DNA of 64,000 nt from positions 62,001-126,000 of the forward strand of contig CAKZLB010000040.1 of NCBI GenBank assembly GCA_937124965.1. Reading direction: 5' to 3'. Source of the stretch: an uncultured Bacteroidota bacterium. Lineage in GTDB: Bacteria > Bacteroidota > Bacteroidia > NS11-12g > UBA9320. The translations under genes were made by a program, and so were the position numbers. Positions 13,937 to 19,130 of the stretch are shown piece after piece. The notes under the pieces were generated by a model. The model made no database searches. It saw nothing but the letters and a program-made list of their open reading frames with translations, and had not been told where the DNA came from. Within the stretch, counting starts at the first letter, position 1. Every line of letters begins with the position of its first letter.

Positions 13937-14428
13937 TTGAGAGAAACGTATAAACGTCTTTACTTTTTGTATTACAACGATTTATGTCGATTTGCGAATT
14001 TTTACTGTTCTGACACACATATGTCTGAAGACGCTGTACAACAAGTATTTCTTAAACTTTGGGAAAACAAGGTCGACTTCACCAAAGTTAAGCAACCAAA
14101 GTCATATCTCTTTTCAGCTGTAAAAAATCAAGTAATAAACGAGGCCAGAAAAAGTGCCATTGTTTCAACTCTCGAAAATGAAGATGTTTCTGAAAGTTTT
14201 AATGTTGAAGATTACTTAGATGGCAAAGATTTGGAACAAAAACTTAAAATGGTCATAGAGGCACTTCCACCAAAAAGACAATACATTTTTCGTTTGAGCA
14301 GAGAAGACCATAAATCTCATAAAGAAATTGCTGAGTTCTTAGATATTACTCCCAAAACTGTCGAGAATCAAATTGGTAAAGCACTTAAGTTTATAAAAAG
14401 CAAAATATATTCGACTGATAGTCAATAA
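13937..14428 (+). CDS. ECF-type RNA polymerase sigma factor
   Basis: A 163-residue sigma-70 family protein of the extracytoplasmic (RpoE-like) group. Region 2 spans about residues 8-70, with SEDAVQQVFLKLWENK as region 2.2/2.3. Region 4 spans about 108-155, with the HTH KEIAEFLDITPKTVENQIGKAL. The start must be TTG at 13937, because an in-frame TAG precedes it by two codons and no ATG fits. Downstream are a mini anti-sigma-like ORF, a FecR-like anti-sigma gene and a TonB-dependent receptor, so it probably responds to substrate binding at the outer membrane. Confidence 0.9.
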   Translation: MRETYKRLYFLYYNDLCRFANFYCSDTHMSEDAVQQVFLKLWENKVDFTKVKQPKSYLFSAVKNQVINEARKSAIVSTLENEDVSESFNVEDYLDGKDLEQKLKMVIEALPPKRQYIFRLSREDHKSHKEIAEFLDITPKTVENQIGKALKFIKSKIYSTDSQ

Positions 14429-14510
14429 TATATAATTTTATTTGATATTTTTTGAAATAGGAGTGAGGGATAGGGCACTTTAATGTGTCTTATAAATACA
14501 TTCCGGAATT

Positions 14511-14666
14511 ATGAACTATTTACAAGGCAATACCCTACTAAGGTATTTACTAAATCAGTGCACAGTTGAAGAAACTATCGAATTGGGGCATTGGTTAGAC
14601 GAAAGTCAACAAAACAGAAATACATTAAACTATCTACGTACACGTATTAGTTTGATGGCTATTTAA
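14511..14666 (+). CDS. 51-residue stand-alone anti-sigma N-terminal-like peptide
   Basis: An ATG at 14511 opens a 51-codon frame ending TAA at 14664-14666, two bases before the FecR ATG. The product begins MNYLQGNTLLRYLLNQC and continues with a TVEETIELGHWLDES region. Aligned without gaps to the first 45 residues of the next gene's product, it shares the pattern LL-x6-T-[VL]-E-E-x7-L and similar helix spacing. This looks like the cytoplasmic sigma-binding domain of FecR-type anti-sigma factors without membrane or sensor parts. There is no signal or membrane segment. Function is inferred; it could also be a decayed duplicate. Confidence 0.55.
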   Translation: MNYLQGNTLLRYLLNQCTVEETIELGHWLDESQQNRNTLNYLRTRISLMAI

Positions 14667-14668
14667 CA

Positions 14669-15628
14669 ATGAATAAAGAACACTTGATATATGGACACTT
14701 ATTTAAATCTCTAACGTTAGAGGAGGAGCAGATTTTTGCGAACTTACTTAAGAACGATGAGAGTTTTAAACGTGAAGTAGCTCAGATTTCTGAACTATGG
14801 AGTGCTAGTGAAAATATACCTTTTGAAGACACATATAATGTTGGTGAAGCTTGGAATAGTTTCGAAGAAAAAATAAACAACAAACAAAATAAAAAGATTA
14901 TTCATCCAAATCATTGGAAATTACTTTACAGGGTTGCTGCTGTTGTGCTACTCGTTTTGTCTTCTTTGTTTGTATTTAACCAATTTAATGAAGACTCTTT
15001 TACCGCTGGCTTGGTATATGAATCTTCAGAAAACCAACAAGTATGCGGACTGATTGATGGTTCACACGTTTACCTAGACAATCAGTCAAAACTAAAAATA
15101 GATAAACAATTTAATGCGTCAGATCGTAAAATGCGATTAGACGGAAAAGCCTTTTTTGTCGTAAAACCGGATAAAGACAGGGCCTTTGAGGTGGCTACAA
15201 ACCACCTCACTGCCACTGTTAAAGGTACTACTTTTCTTGTTAGAACAGATGACCACTCTTCCACAGTCGGCGTAAAAACCGGGATTGTTGAAGTGCATGT
15301 TGGCAATCAGACCGTATTATTAACTGCTGGAGATCAATTAGATTTTTCAGACGGTAATGGTGGAGTGGTTTCTCGTTCTAATTTAGATGATTCTTCAATT
15401 ACAGTGCTTCAAAAAAATGCACTCGATTATTATGACACACCACTGAATGTTATTTTATCGGATCTTAAAAACAGCCTTGGGTTAGAGGTTCTAGCACCTA
15501 AATCTATTGAAAATGAGAGATTTACTATGCAACTGTCTAATGCTTCTAAAGACGAAATTATCAAGACTATAGAGACAATCACCCATCGAAAAGCTATATT
15601 AAAAAACAATACCTATACGTTAATTTAG
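14669..15628 (+). CDS. FecR-family anti-sigma factor
   Basis: A 319-residue inner-membrane regulator. A cytoplasmic N-terminal sigma-binding domain (1-60) is followed by one transmembrane helix (about 88-106, AAVVLLVLSSLFVFNQF). A periplasmic FecR beta domain (about 115-220) includes LDNQSKLKI and GTTFLVRTDD. The C-terminal DUF4974 domain (about 250-319) has LNVILSDLKNSLGLEV. It should hold the upstream ECF sigma inactive until the TonB-dependent receptor signals. ATG start; 12 bases to the receptor gene. Confidence 0.9.
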   Translation: MNKEHLIYGHLFKSLTLEEEQIFANLLKNDESFKREVAQISELWSASENIPFEDTYNVGEAWNSFEEKINNKQNKKIIHPNHWKLLYRVAAVVLLVLSSLFVFNQFNEDSFTAGLVYESSENQQVCGLIDGSHVYLDNQSKLKIDKQFNASDRKMRLDGKAFFVVKPDKDRAFEVATNHLTATVKGTTFLVRTDDHSSTVGVKTGIVEVHVGNQTVLLTAGDQLDFSDGNGGVVSRSNLDDSSITVLQKNALDYYDTPLNVILSDLKNSLGLEVLAPKSIENERFTMQLSNASKDEIIKTIETITHRKAILKNNTYTLI

Positions 15629-15640
15629 TAGATTTACCGA

Positions 15641-18232
15641 GTGAGACATCACTCGATATATTTCTGGATATTTCTCATAACAATGTCCTTCTTTCATTCG
15701 AAGGCTTTAGCCCAGTGCTCTTTTTTATCACAAAGAGTTTCTGTTTCATTGCAAAACACCAATTCAGAAGCATGTCTTAAAGTTTTATCAAAACGCTACG
15801 ATTTTACCATAAACTACTCTTCTGAAGTTTTTTCCGATTCAGGTTTCAACCTTGAAGTTACCAACCAGAAACTTGAAACAATTTTAAAAAGTATCGCCAA
15901 AAGAAATGGTGCGGAATTCTTATGTGTTGGCACTAACAGTATTGTTTTTCGGAAGAAGCTAGACTCAAAGCCCTCAGTAGTATCTGGTTTTGTTTTAGAC
16001 TCTACTAGTAATCAGCCAATTACAGGAGTGTTGGTGCTGTACGACGATTATTGGGTTGAGACAGATGCAGACGGTTATTTCAGTATTTCAGTTGTTAGCT
16101 TACCCGCAGTTCTTAATTTGTATTCACCAGGTTATTACAATGGATTCGTAATTATCCAGGAAGTGAGTTCCCAACCTAAGAGTTATCTCATGTCGCCCGA
16201 CAATATGCTTAACCCTTCCATAATTAATGTATATGATTCACTCCTCATGGTCACAAAAACTGGTGGGGTAAATATCAATATGGGCGAATTAAGCAAAATA
16301 CCGTCTATAGCAGGGTCTCCAGGTGTTTTAAACAGCTTGCGATTTTTACCTTCGATTCAAAGTACCGTAGAAGTTAATGGTGGAATGGTGGTTCAAGGAG
16401 GTGGAAAAGATCAAAACTTGGTTCTATTCGATGGGATGGAGCTTTACAATCCAATGCATTTATTTGGGTTGTTTTCGGTTTTTGACGAAAACTCTCTTCA
16501 AAGTATTTCGTTTTACAAAAATTCAATTCCAGCGCAATACAGTGGCCGATTGTCGTCTGTGTTAGATGTAAAAAGTAAAGTAGGCGATTATAATAAGTGG
16601 AATTCCAAATTGAACGTAAATCCGGTCTTGTTGGAAGGGATGTTTGATGGTCCAATAAAAAAGGATAAAACTTCTTTGCTAATTTCTGGTAGACGGTCGT
16701 TTACAGACTTTTTTCCGTTGTTCTATGAACAAATTCAAGCTCAAAACGAATTATCACGATTTAAATACTATTTCTATGATTTAACGGGAACGCTTAATCA
16801 TAAAATATCAGAGAAAACACATTTCTATTTGACTGGTTATTTGGGTGGAGATAAAGGCTACATTAGAGGAAGTACGAGTGAAACAAGTAACAATACCGTT
16901 AAAGAAAACCAAAATGACGTATTTGTTCAATCTAACATTTTAGCCACAGCAGGCATTAAGACTTGGGTGAATAATACACTTAGTGTCCATGTTAAAACTG
17001 GGTTTACTCAATACGGTTTTACGCATGAAAATGAATATGATCTTTCCATCGAAAATAGTGAGAATATTTACACCCGAAATACAAGGTTAGGCTATCAAAG
17101 CAAAATTTCGGATTGGAAAACTGGAGTGTATGTAAGAACACTTCCTAGACATAACCATGCATTTGTTTTTGGAATGGAAAATATTTGGCACAATTTCTCA
17201 CCGTCAAATTCACAGTACTTTTTAAAGGAAAATGATTTTATTTTTTATGATACGCTGTTTAAAGTGCGAGACTCAAAAATATTAGAGCAACGATACTTCT
17301 TTAGCGATGTTTTTAGCAAAAAAGGACTTAAAATTATGACTGGTGTTCATTTTGCAAACTTCGACAATGATCAAGTATATCGCTCTCTACAGCCGAGAAT
17401 AAACGTTTCTTATGACGTTAGTTTGAAAAATAGAATTGAACTTGGATTTGCAAGAACTAGCCAGTTCATGCTATTTGTGCCCAACAATTTGTTAGGCATA
17501 CCAATAGATATTTGGATACCCGCAGATGAGAACATAAGCCCAATGCACTGTCAACATATGCTGTTTGGCTTTACTCGAAAAATTGGTAAGACAGTGGCAT
17601 TTAAAATGAATGGGTATTACAAAATATTTGAAAATATAATTGAGTATAGAAATGGCGTTGCTGACTTTATTGCAGAATGGGATAAAGCACTTTTGGCTGG
17701 CAATGGTCGAGCAAAAGGAGTTGAGTTTTTGTTGAAAAAAGAAAAGGGTAAACTCAATGGCTGGTTCGCTTATACTCTTTCAAAAAGTGAACGATCAATC
17801 AGTGAAATTAATAACGGGGAATGGTTTCCTTTTCAATTTGACCGAACTCATGATCTGAAAGCAGTAGTTCATTATCAGTTAAATAAAAACATTTCGTTAG
17901 GAGGAACTTGGTCTTATGCTTCCGGAAACTACCTCACAGCACCTGAAGTTCATTATCTGATTACAGTCGAGAATCAGCAATACTTAATTGAGCAATATGG
18001 TGCAAAAAACAACTTAAAGCTCCCTGCGTATCACAGATTAGACTTAGGTATCCACCATAGAAAAGATTTAGGTAATGCGCTGCAGACATGGAGTTTCACG
18101 ATTTACAATGTTTACAACAGACAAAATGTATTTTATGTGAATTCCAATTTAAACGAAACAGGCGGGTTGTCATTTAAACCTGTTTCAATTTTACCAGTTT
18201 TGCCATCCGTAAACTATGCGATTGAATTTTAA
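15641..18232 (+). CDS. TonB-dependent outer-membrane receptor with STN signalling domain
   Basis: An 863-residue outer-membrane receptor. Signal peptide 1-24 (ending SKALAQ). An STN domain follows at about 29-98 (NLEVTNQKLETILKSIAKRN), then a carboxypeptidase-regulatory-like domain (about 112-190). A plug contains MVVQGGGKDQNLVLFDGMEL near 250, and the beta-barrel runs to the C-terminus. The STN domain marks it as a transducer that contacts the FecR partner encoded just upstream. The start is GTG; an ATG 14 codons later would cut into the signal peptide. No SusD gene follows; a DUF4249 lipoprotein gene overlaps its end by 17 bases. Ligand is unknown. Confidence 0.88.
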   Translation: MRHHSIYFWIFLITMSFFHSKALAQCSFLSQRVSVSLQNTNSEACLKVLSKRYDFTINYSSEVFSDSGFNLEVTNQKLETILKSIAKRNGAEFLCVGTNSIVFRKKLDSKPSVVSGFVLDSTSNQPITGVLVLYDDYWVETDADGYFSISVVSLPAVLNLYSPGYYNGFVIIQEVSSQPKSYLMSPDNMLNPSIINVYDSLLMVTKTGGVNINMGELSKIPSIAGSPGVLNSLRFLPSIQSTVEVNGGMVVQGGGKDQNLVLFDGMELYNPMHLFGLFSVFDENSLQSISFYKNSIPAQYSGRLSSVLDVKSKVGDYNKWNSKLNVNPVLLEGMFDGPIKKDKTSLLISGRRSFTDFFPLFYEQIQAQNELSRFKYYFYDLTGTLNHKISEKTHFYLTGYLGGDKGYIRGSTSETSNNTVKENQNDVFVQSNILATAGIKTWVNNTLSVHVKTGFTQYGFTHENEYDLSIENSENIYTRNTRLGYQSKISDWKTGVYVRTLPRHNHAFVFGMENIWHNFSPSNSQYFLKENDFIFYDTLFKVRDSKILEQRYFFSDVFSKKGLKIMTGVHFANFDNDQVYRSLQPRINVSYDVSLKNRIELGFARTSQFMLFVPNNLLGIPIDIWIPADENISPMHCQHMLFGFTRKIGKTVAFKMNGYYKIFENIIEYRNGVADFIAEWDKALLAGNGRAKGVEFLLKKEKGKLNGWFAYTLSKSERSISEINNGEWFPFQFDRTHDLKAVVHYQLNKNISLGGTWSYASGNYLTAPEVHYLITVENQQYLIEQYGAKNNLKLPAYHRLDLGIHHRKDLGNALQTWSFTIYNVYNRQNVFYVNSNLNETGGLSFKPVSILPVLPSVNYAIEF

Positions 18233-19130
18233 CTATTTGGTTTTAATAATAAGTATGATTAGTGCATTATCATGCAATGATGATCTTTCGTTTAATAGTT
18301 CTAAAAGCCGAAACCTGATTGTTCTTCATGCTCAAGCAGAAGTAGGTAAAAAAATTGTTCTCGAGGTAAAACAAAGTGAGTTAATTACTGAGGATACGTT
18401 AAATAACCCGATTGATGGTGTTCGAGCGGTGCTTAAAGTAAATGGAATTGATGAGGACGTAACCTATTCAAATTCAGAAGGTTTTGCTTCATTTTCATAT
18501 ATAGTAACGCCGCGAGATACGTTGGCAATAGAGCTAGAAAAGGAAGGTTTTGACGTAGTTTCTGCGAAAACAACAACACCCGAAAACATTGGAATTTTAC
18601 AGTTTGATACAACCAATAAAAGGCTGCTAGATCAAGGATTGAGAGTTTCGTTCTATGATCGACCGAATGAAAAGAACTATTATCAGTTAGTTCTTATTGG
18701 AGAGCGTTGGACATACCAACTTGACAACATTACTGGTGAACGATTAGATTCGGTGAGGTCCAGAGAATTTGTAGAAATGAAAAGTATCAATCGAATATTC
18801 TTTTCTGATAATAACATAGTTAACAATAGACAAAACTTTGAACTATTAAACGACAAAATATTTAATGGTAAAAACTTTGTTTTAGATGTTGATGTTAACC
18901 GTTTTGCGCTTTCTGAACAAATAGACAAAAGCGCAATGAAAAAGTTAACGGTAGAACTCAAAAGCATCAGTGAGGCCTACTATAGTTTTTTGACAACATT
19001 GAGTTTGAACAGGCCAATATACGGTGGGCCATTTAGTATTTCATCACAAGTGCCAAGTAATGTGTTAGGAGGCTATGGAATATTTGCAACGTATAGTGTT
19101 GACCGTGCTGAAATAGTGTTAGAACAATAG
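18216..19130 (+). CDS. DUF4249-type outer-membrane lipoprotein
   Basis: A 304-residue lipoprotein. The signal ends in the lipobox SALSC with the lipidated Cys at residue 20. The remainder is beta-rich with the layout of DUF4249 proteins: an Ig-like N-terminal part with an AVLKVNGIDEDVTYS segment, and a C-terminal part with GPFSISSQVPSNVLGGYGIF. DUF4249 genes commonly follow TonB-dependent receptors in Bacteroidota and are thought to be receptor-associated surface lipoproteins. The ATG lies inside the receptor gene (17-base overlap), indicating translational coupling. Confidence 0.82.
   Translation: MRLNFNYLVLIISMISALSCNDDLSFNSSKSRNLIVLHAQAEVGKKIVLEVKQSELITEDTLNNPIDGVRAVLKVNGIDEDVTYSNSEGFASFSYIVTPRDTLAIELEKEGFDVVSAKTTTPENIGILQFDTTNKRLLDQGLRVSFYDRPNEKNYYQLVLIGERWTYQLDNITGERLDSVRSREFVEMKSINRIFFSDNNIVNNRQNFELLNDKIFNGKNFVLDVDVNRFALSEQIDKSAMKKLTVELKSISEAYYSFLTTLSLNRPIYGGPFSISSQVPSNVLGGYGIFATYSVDRAEIVLEQ

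Follow-up and report, generated by a model that had tools for sequence, protein, structure and literature searches.

FecR-type regulators are a classic example of signalling in which stepwise proteolysis finally leaves a cytoplasmic piece some 50 residues long. The N-domain shared by FecR, FoxR, FpvR and PupR (DUF4880, PF16220; ASDI group AS243) comprises helices 1-3 and carries a conserved Trp. In E. coli, FecI is bound and activated by FecR residues 9-59, and no activating fragment is shorter than 51 residues (PMC9249621). In the HasI-HasS-HasR system the sigma factor HasI activates hasS only and not its own gene (PMC9249621). Soluble class I anti-sigma factors, which form ~35% of the ASDIs and are mostly zinc-binding, are small cytoplasmic domains encoded beside an ECF sigma gene. 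An adjacent ASDI is found at only 6% of the ECFs in Bacteroidetes (PMC7406223).

In the window, which is the whole 64,000-nucleotide stretch of DNA analysed here, five genes of interest lie on the forward strand. The ECF sigma factor gene (13937..14428) matches Pfam Sigma70_r2 (E 1.7e-10) and Sigma70_r4_2 (E 2.1e-14), and its start codon, TTG according to the ORF list, is uncertain. It is followed by a putative ECF-type promoter (14465..14492) of the mini-ORF-fecR operon, recognised as an upstream element common to the mini-ORFs. The mini-ORF (14511..14666) consists of an ATG located 82 bases past the sigma stop at 14428, 51 codons in all and a TAA. The sequence-only reading had placed it between the sigma gene and fecR, where it is indeed found, 2 bases before the fecR ATG (14669). 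The fecR product (14669..15628; Pfam FecR, E 7.6e-16) has a Trp-less N-domain, one TM helix, a periplasmic FecR domain and FecR_C, and its relatives in the PDB are 4m0n/4m0h. A TonB-dependent receptor with an N-terminal STN-like signalling domain (15641..18232; Pfam FecR_C/STN-like at 37-94, CarboxypepD_reg and Plug) is the probable partner of FecR, and the DUF4249 gene overlapping it (18216..19130; E 3.1e-28) is probably the end of the operon. The host genome (4.09 Mb in 79 contigs) encodes two FecRs; the second one, whose N-domain is ordinary, is encoded on contig C49 a short distance 3' of its own sigma gene.

The location of the mini-ORF between the ECF sigma and FecR functions recalls the FecIRA-type operon. 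Its product resembles the N-domain of FecR, FoxR, FpvR and PupR in helices 1-3 and in the conserved Trp, but it is a separate protein of 51 residues that lacks the TM and periplasmic parts, and the domain in the neighbouring FecR is degenerate or missing. The mini-protein is soluble and has the same length and residues as the RseP-released E. coli fragment (9-59); however, it is encoded by a gene instead of being a cleavage product, and its activity is a prediction. Although it shares with soluble class I anti-sigma factors the form of a small cytoplasmic domain beside an ECF sigma gene, it is of the FecR type, has no zinc motif and coexists with a membrane FecR. The element between sigma and regulator is reminiscent of HasI-HasS-HasR, where the sigma factor drives the regulator gene and not its own, but HasS is one intact membrane protein. 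No described example of a stand-alone FecR N-domain was found in the open-access literature, in line with what the sequence-only reading had stated; because the search covered open-access papers, the novelty is provisional.

Conservation and family of the mini-ORF

The mini-ORF is a real, conserved gene. A protein search of 97 relatives located it in the corresponding position in each of the four other genus members in this set (4/4) with 80-82% identity, where FecR identity is 53-64% and sigma identity 54-62%. With a profile (A1) built from 26 mini-ORF members, 89 of the order's 108 genomes were each found to have a single stand-alone homologue, an open frame of 54-133 residues directly upstream of fecR; in one further genome (the 90th of 108) the match is confined to the beginning of a 338-residue FecR. 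The reading frame, on whose conservation the sequence-only reading had staked its proposal, is therefore kept in relatives. In the family of the window (f1), the mini-ORF is present exactly where fecR is present, with 30 genomes having both and 8 having neither. Within the genus, the mini-protein is under the tightest constraint among the three products: dN/dS (Nei-Gojobori, taken only where synonymous sites are unsaturated) is 0.06-0.10 for the mini-ORF and 0.11-0.57 for fecR, and between the window and its congeners pN reaches 0.24-0.29 in sigma and 0.26-0.36 in fecR but stays at 0.11-0.14 in the mini-ORF. A chance ORF is ruled out by the conservation in genus and order and by these dN/dS values.

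Outside the order, in a set of 395 genomes of the class, the profile matches (best E 7e-10) are mainly at the N-terminal end of open frames 300-430 residues long, a few of the frames being shorter or cut. Since the matches elsewhere in the class are mainly FecR N-termini, the stand-alone form appears to be limited to one order of uncultured Bacteroidia. The same matches make the homology between the mini-protein and the FecR N-domain independent of the neighbouring FecR.

The mini-protein is a FecR-type sigma-binding domain, as had been read from the sequence. When 57 mini-ORFs were aligned with 21 FecR N-domains of other orders (hhalign), they matched over helices 1-3 with a probability of 97% and E 4e-11, and profile-profile comparison gave 96% and E 4e-9 against the f1 FecR N-termini. 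The versions of f1 and of f2, a sister family in the same order, match each other at 98.7% (profile-profile). Three residues, N7, E21 and W28, do not vary among the mini-ORFs (57/57), and W28 falls in the column of E. coli FecR W39 in every one of the 57; the E. coli reference was confirmed against annotated fecR records (99.7%). The gapless alignment with the neighbouring FecR that had been reported earlier holds in its register (offset -2), which the profiles support, and fails in its pairwise significance: BLASTP returned no match between the two proteins, and the ungapped alignment has 6 identities (shuffle p = 0.51). The homology of the two is thus carried by the profiles. With 51 residues and no further domain, and with FecR encoded by the next gene, the mini-protein has no membrane or sensor part, as originally described.

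Pfam DUF4880 matches 6 of 26 mini-ORF members, with a best E of 0.0019 and without the window copy. The window peptide itself has no Pfam or NCBIfam match, and other members have weak anti-sigma matches. A small gene located between sigma and fecR can thus escape notice, the peptide in the window being unnamed by either database. A profile search of PDB sequences returned no credible relative. The HxxxCxxC motif of zinc-binding soluble anti-sigma factors (ZAS) is absent and the window peptide has a single Cys. This residue, Cys17 (14559-14561), is invariant in 22/22 f1 mini-proteins and is Met in most of f2; a redox or metal role of Cys17 in f1 is conceivable.

By homology, the mini-protein very probably binds the sigma factor. 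The structure prediction of the peptide-sigma complex that the sequence-only reading had called for yielded AlphaFold models too weak for docking. The input was a read-through of one locus (L091) with its genes in one frame, and the alignment was very shallow. The sigma-mini fusion reached pLDDT 64 and pTM 0.37 and the sigma-mini-FecR-N fusion pLDDT 58 and pTM 0.30, and neither gives a reliable docking. In the latter model, the mini-protein and the FecR N-domain each have three helices of similar lengths.

Complementary loss in FecR and the upstream element

The N-domain of the f1 FecRs is still recognisable, with a median of 32 bits to the canonical model. The Trp at the W28 position is found in none of them (0/23), whereas it occurs in 16/21 canonical FecRs and 22/22 f1 mini-ORFs. 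In the related PupR, W39 belongs to the core (PMC9249621), so the loss of the Trp shows divergence of the FecR copy and not necessarily lost binding, and the Trp-less N-domain of f1 FecR may still bind sigma. In f2 the loss goes further: the FecRs lack helices 1-2 and begin at about canonical column 47, with only the IW..AW part left. The mini-ORFs span canonical columns 14-17 to 53-55, and the mini-ORF and f2 FecR are complementary in that they cover largely different columns of the canonical domain. Most simply, part of the FecR N-terminus was duplicated in the ancestor of the order and FecR later lost its own copy; a possible alternative is that the domain was split off in f2 by fission and regained in f1.

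A GGGGG-N15-KTGTATTA element was found close 5' of the start codon in all mini-ORFs examined (60/60, window included). Its two blocks, the first TTTTGGGGG-like and the second KTGTATTA-like, are about 15 bases apart, and it ends 5-38 bases before the mini-ORF start. The spacing is exactly 15 in 50 of 59 scored upstream regions, and a match score of at least 10 is reached by 75% of the regions against 3.6% of first-order shuffles. In the window, the element is formed by GAGGG (14465-14469), N15 and GTGTCTTA (14485-14492), with 18 nt to the ATG, and a search of its own genome with the strict pattern returned this site and one intragenic match. We infer that the element is an ECF promoter which would serve autoregulation through recognition by the cognate sigma factor.

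Possible inhibition or activation of the sigma factor

The best explanation, to which we give about an even chance, is that the presumably translated mini-protein is the free 51-residue sigma-binding half of a two-piece FecR, inhibitory and under feedback control. A regulator that is normally one membrane protein would here be made as two pieces. The mini-ORF would have arisen a single time, when part of the FecR N-terminus was duplicated in the ancestor of the order. Its product would then have assumed the canonical role in sigma binding, and the FecR copy would have decayed in f1 and been deleted in f2. A sigma-dependent promoter located in the gap between sigma gene and mini-ORF would allow co-expression of the mini-protein and FecR, joined in f1 by the TonB receptor. 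The cytoplasmic mini-protein would bind sigma and keep it inactive; the receptor would inform FecR, which would then shift the balance and end the inactivity of sigma, the outcome being a negative-feedback loop. The mini-protein would probably be an autoregulated inhibitor and more a complement to FecR than its competitor.

The anti-sigma sign itself has, in our judgement, about an even chance. What stands against the inhibitory reading is that in E. coli the corresponding fragment (FecR 9-59) activates FecI. The mini-protein could instead be a permanently encoded RseP-type fragment that stays on sigma and activates it, with FecR restraining or supplying the complex at the membrane and with no need for proteolytic release. 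Its length and residues match those of the minimal activating fragment, its invariant W28 corresponds to W39, where the W39R substitution abolishes FecI induction in E. coli (PMC9249621), and the extreme conservation of the mini-protein suggests more than one binding surface. Soluble FecR-type N-domains of other systems inhibit, however, and one genus of f2 (g19, three genomes) has lost the mini-ORF: a profile search returned no match there, and in the two genomes whose upstream regions were read the mini-ORF is absent and the element retained. The sigma homologue is kept in 3/3 genomes, and so is a fecR that is truncated or has its DAAWERMKAAI segment repeated in tandem. This would be unexpected for an obligate activator and suggests, indirectly and from one lineage, that the mini-protein is not one; that g19 dropped the mini-ORF and kept sigma, fecR and the element is our main reason for preferring an inhibitory role, and we regard permanent activation as unlikely. 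In the same genomes (L201, L202 and L203), the cytoplasmic N-segment of FecR was observed to carry several tandem HPEAASNDAAWERMKAAIQAKEE-like units before the membrane helix.

The complementary coverage in f2, where the pieces overlap little, would also suit a domain in which helices 1-3 of the mini-protein and the IW..AW region of FecR join non-covalently and neither works alone. The co-occurrence of the mini-ORF with fecR and their near-constant adjacency are consistent with this, but the f1 FecRs retain their own helices 1-3 and many f2 FecRs lie beside neither the sigma gene nor a TonB receptor, and we consider it quite unlikely. The sequence-only reading had suggested a competitor or threshold setter; in this case the mini-protein and the FecR N-domain would contend for the same sigma face. 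The two do belong to the same domain family, and in the AlphaFold model (pTM 0.30) each has three helices, with similar lengths in both. Simple competition with a functional FecR domain does not fit the loss of the signature Trp in f1 (0/23) and the absence of helices 1-2 in f2, which makes competition by the FecR N-domain impossible in that family; we therefore prefer a division of labour and judge the competitor very improbable. A decaying, functionless fragment of a duplicated fecR would account for the homology to part of the FecR domain, but it is hardly credible beside order-wide single-copy retention, dN/dS of 0.06-0.10 and an own conserved promoter-like element, and was rejected on conservation.

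FecR signalling through two polypeptides may extend across the order, the sigma-controlling fragment, which other bacteria make by intramembrane proteolysis, having its own gene and the signal passing by protein contact and not by cutting; we hold this generalisation only tentatively and think it rather doubtful. A lineage with the fragment as a separate conserved gene offers a direct test of whether the fragment inhibits or activates and whether proteolysis is needed.

Gene order in the sister family

The sigma gene is linked to the mini-ORF in f1. In many f2 genomes, the best match to sigma is located 26-34 kb away in the opposite orientation while the element stays with the mini-ORF. This layout looks like the result of an old inversion that cut the operon and left the promoter with the regulator genes. 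The distant sigma gene (L206, L207 and others) adjoins recQ-like and glycosyltransferase-like genes. Some strict-pattern matches in f2 genomes were observed 5' of other genes; for example, in L210, L211, L200 and L196, GGGGG-N15-KTGTNTTA was also seen closely 5' of genes that were judged by eye to be phosphoglycerate mutase-like, DUF3108-like and ComF-like, and a wider regulon of the element is possible in f2.

In several f2 genera (L121, L141, L115, L138 and L131), a large DUF7948/SBBP secreted-type protein follows fecR in place of a TonB receptor, assigned by Pfam for L121 (which also has PKD) and L141 and by eye for L115, L138 and L131. The f2 FecR may therefore have a different signalling partner.
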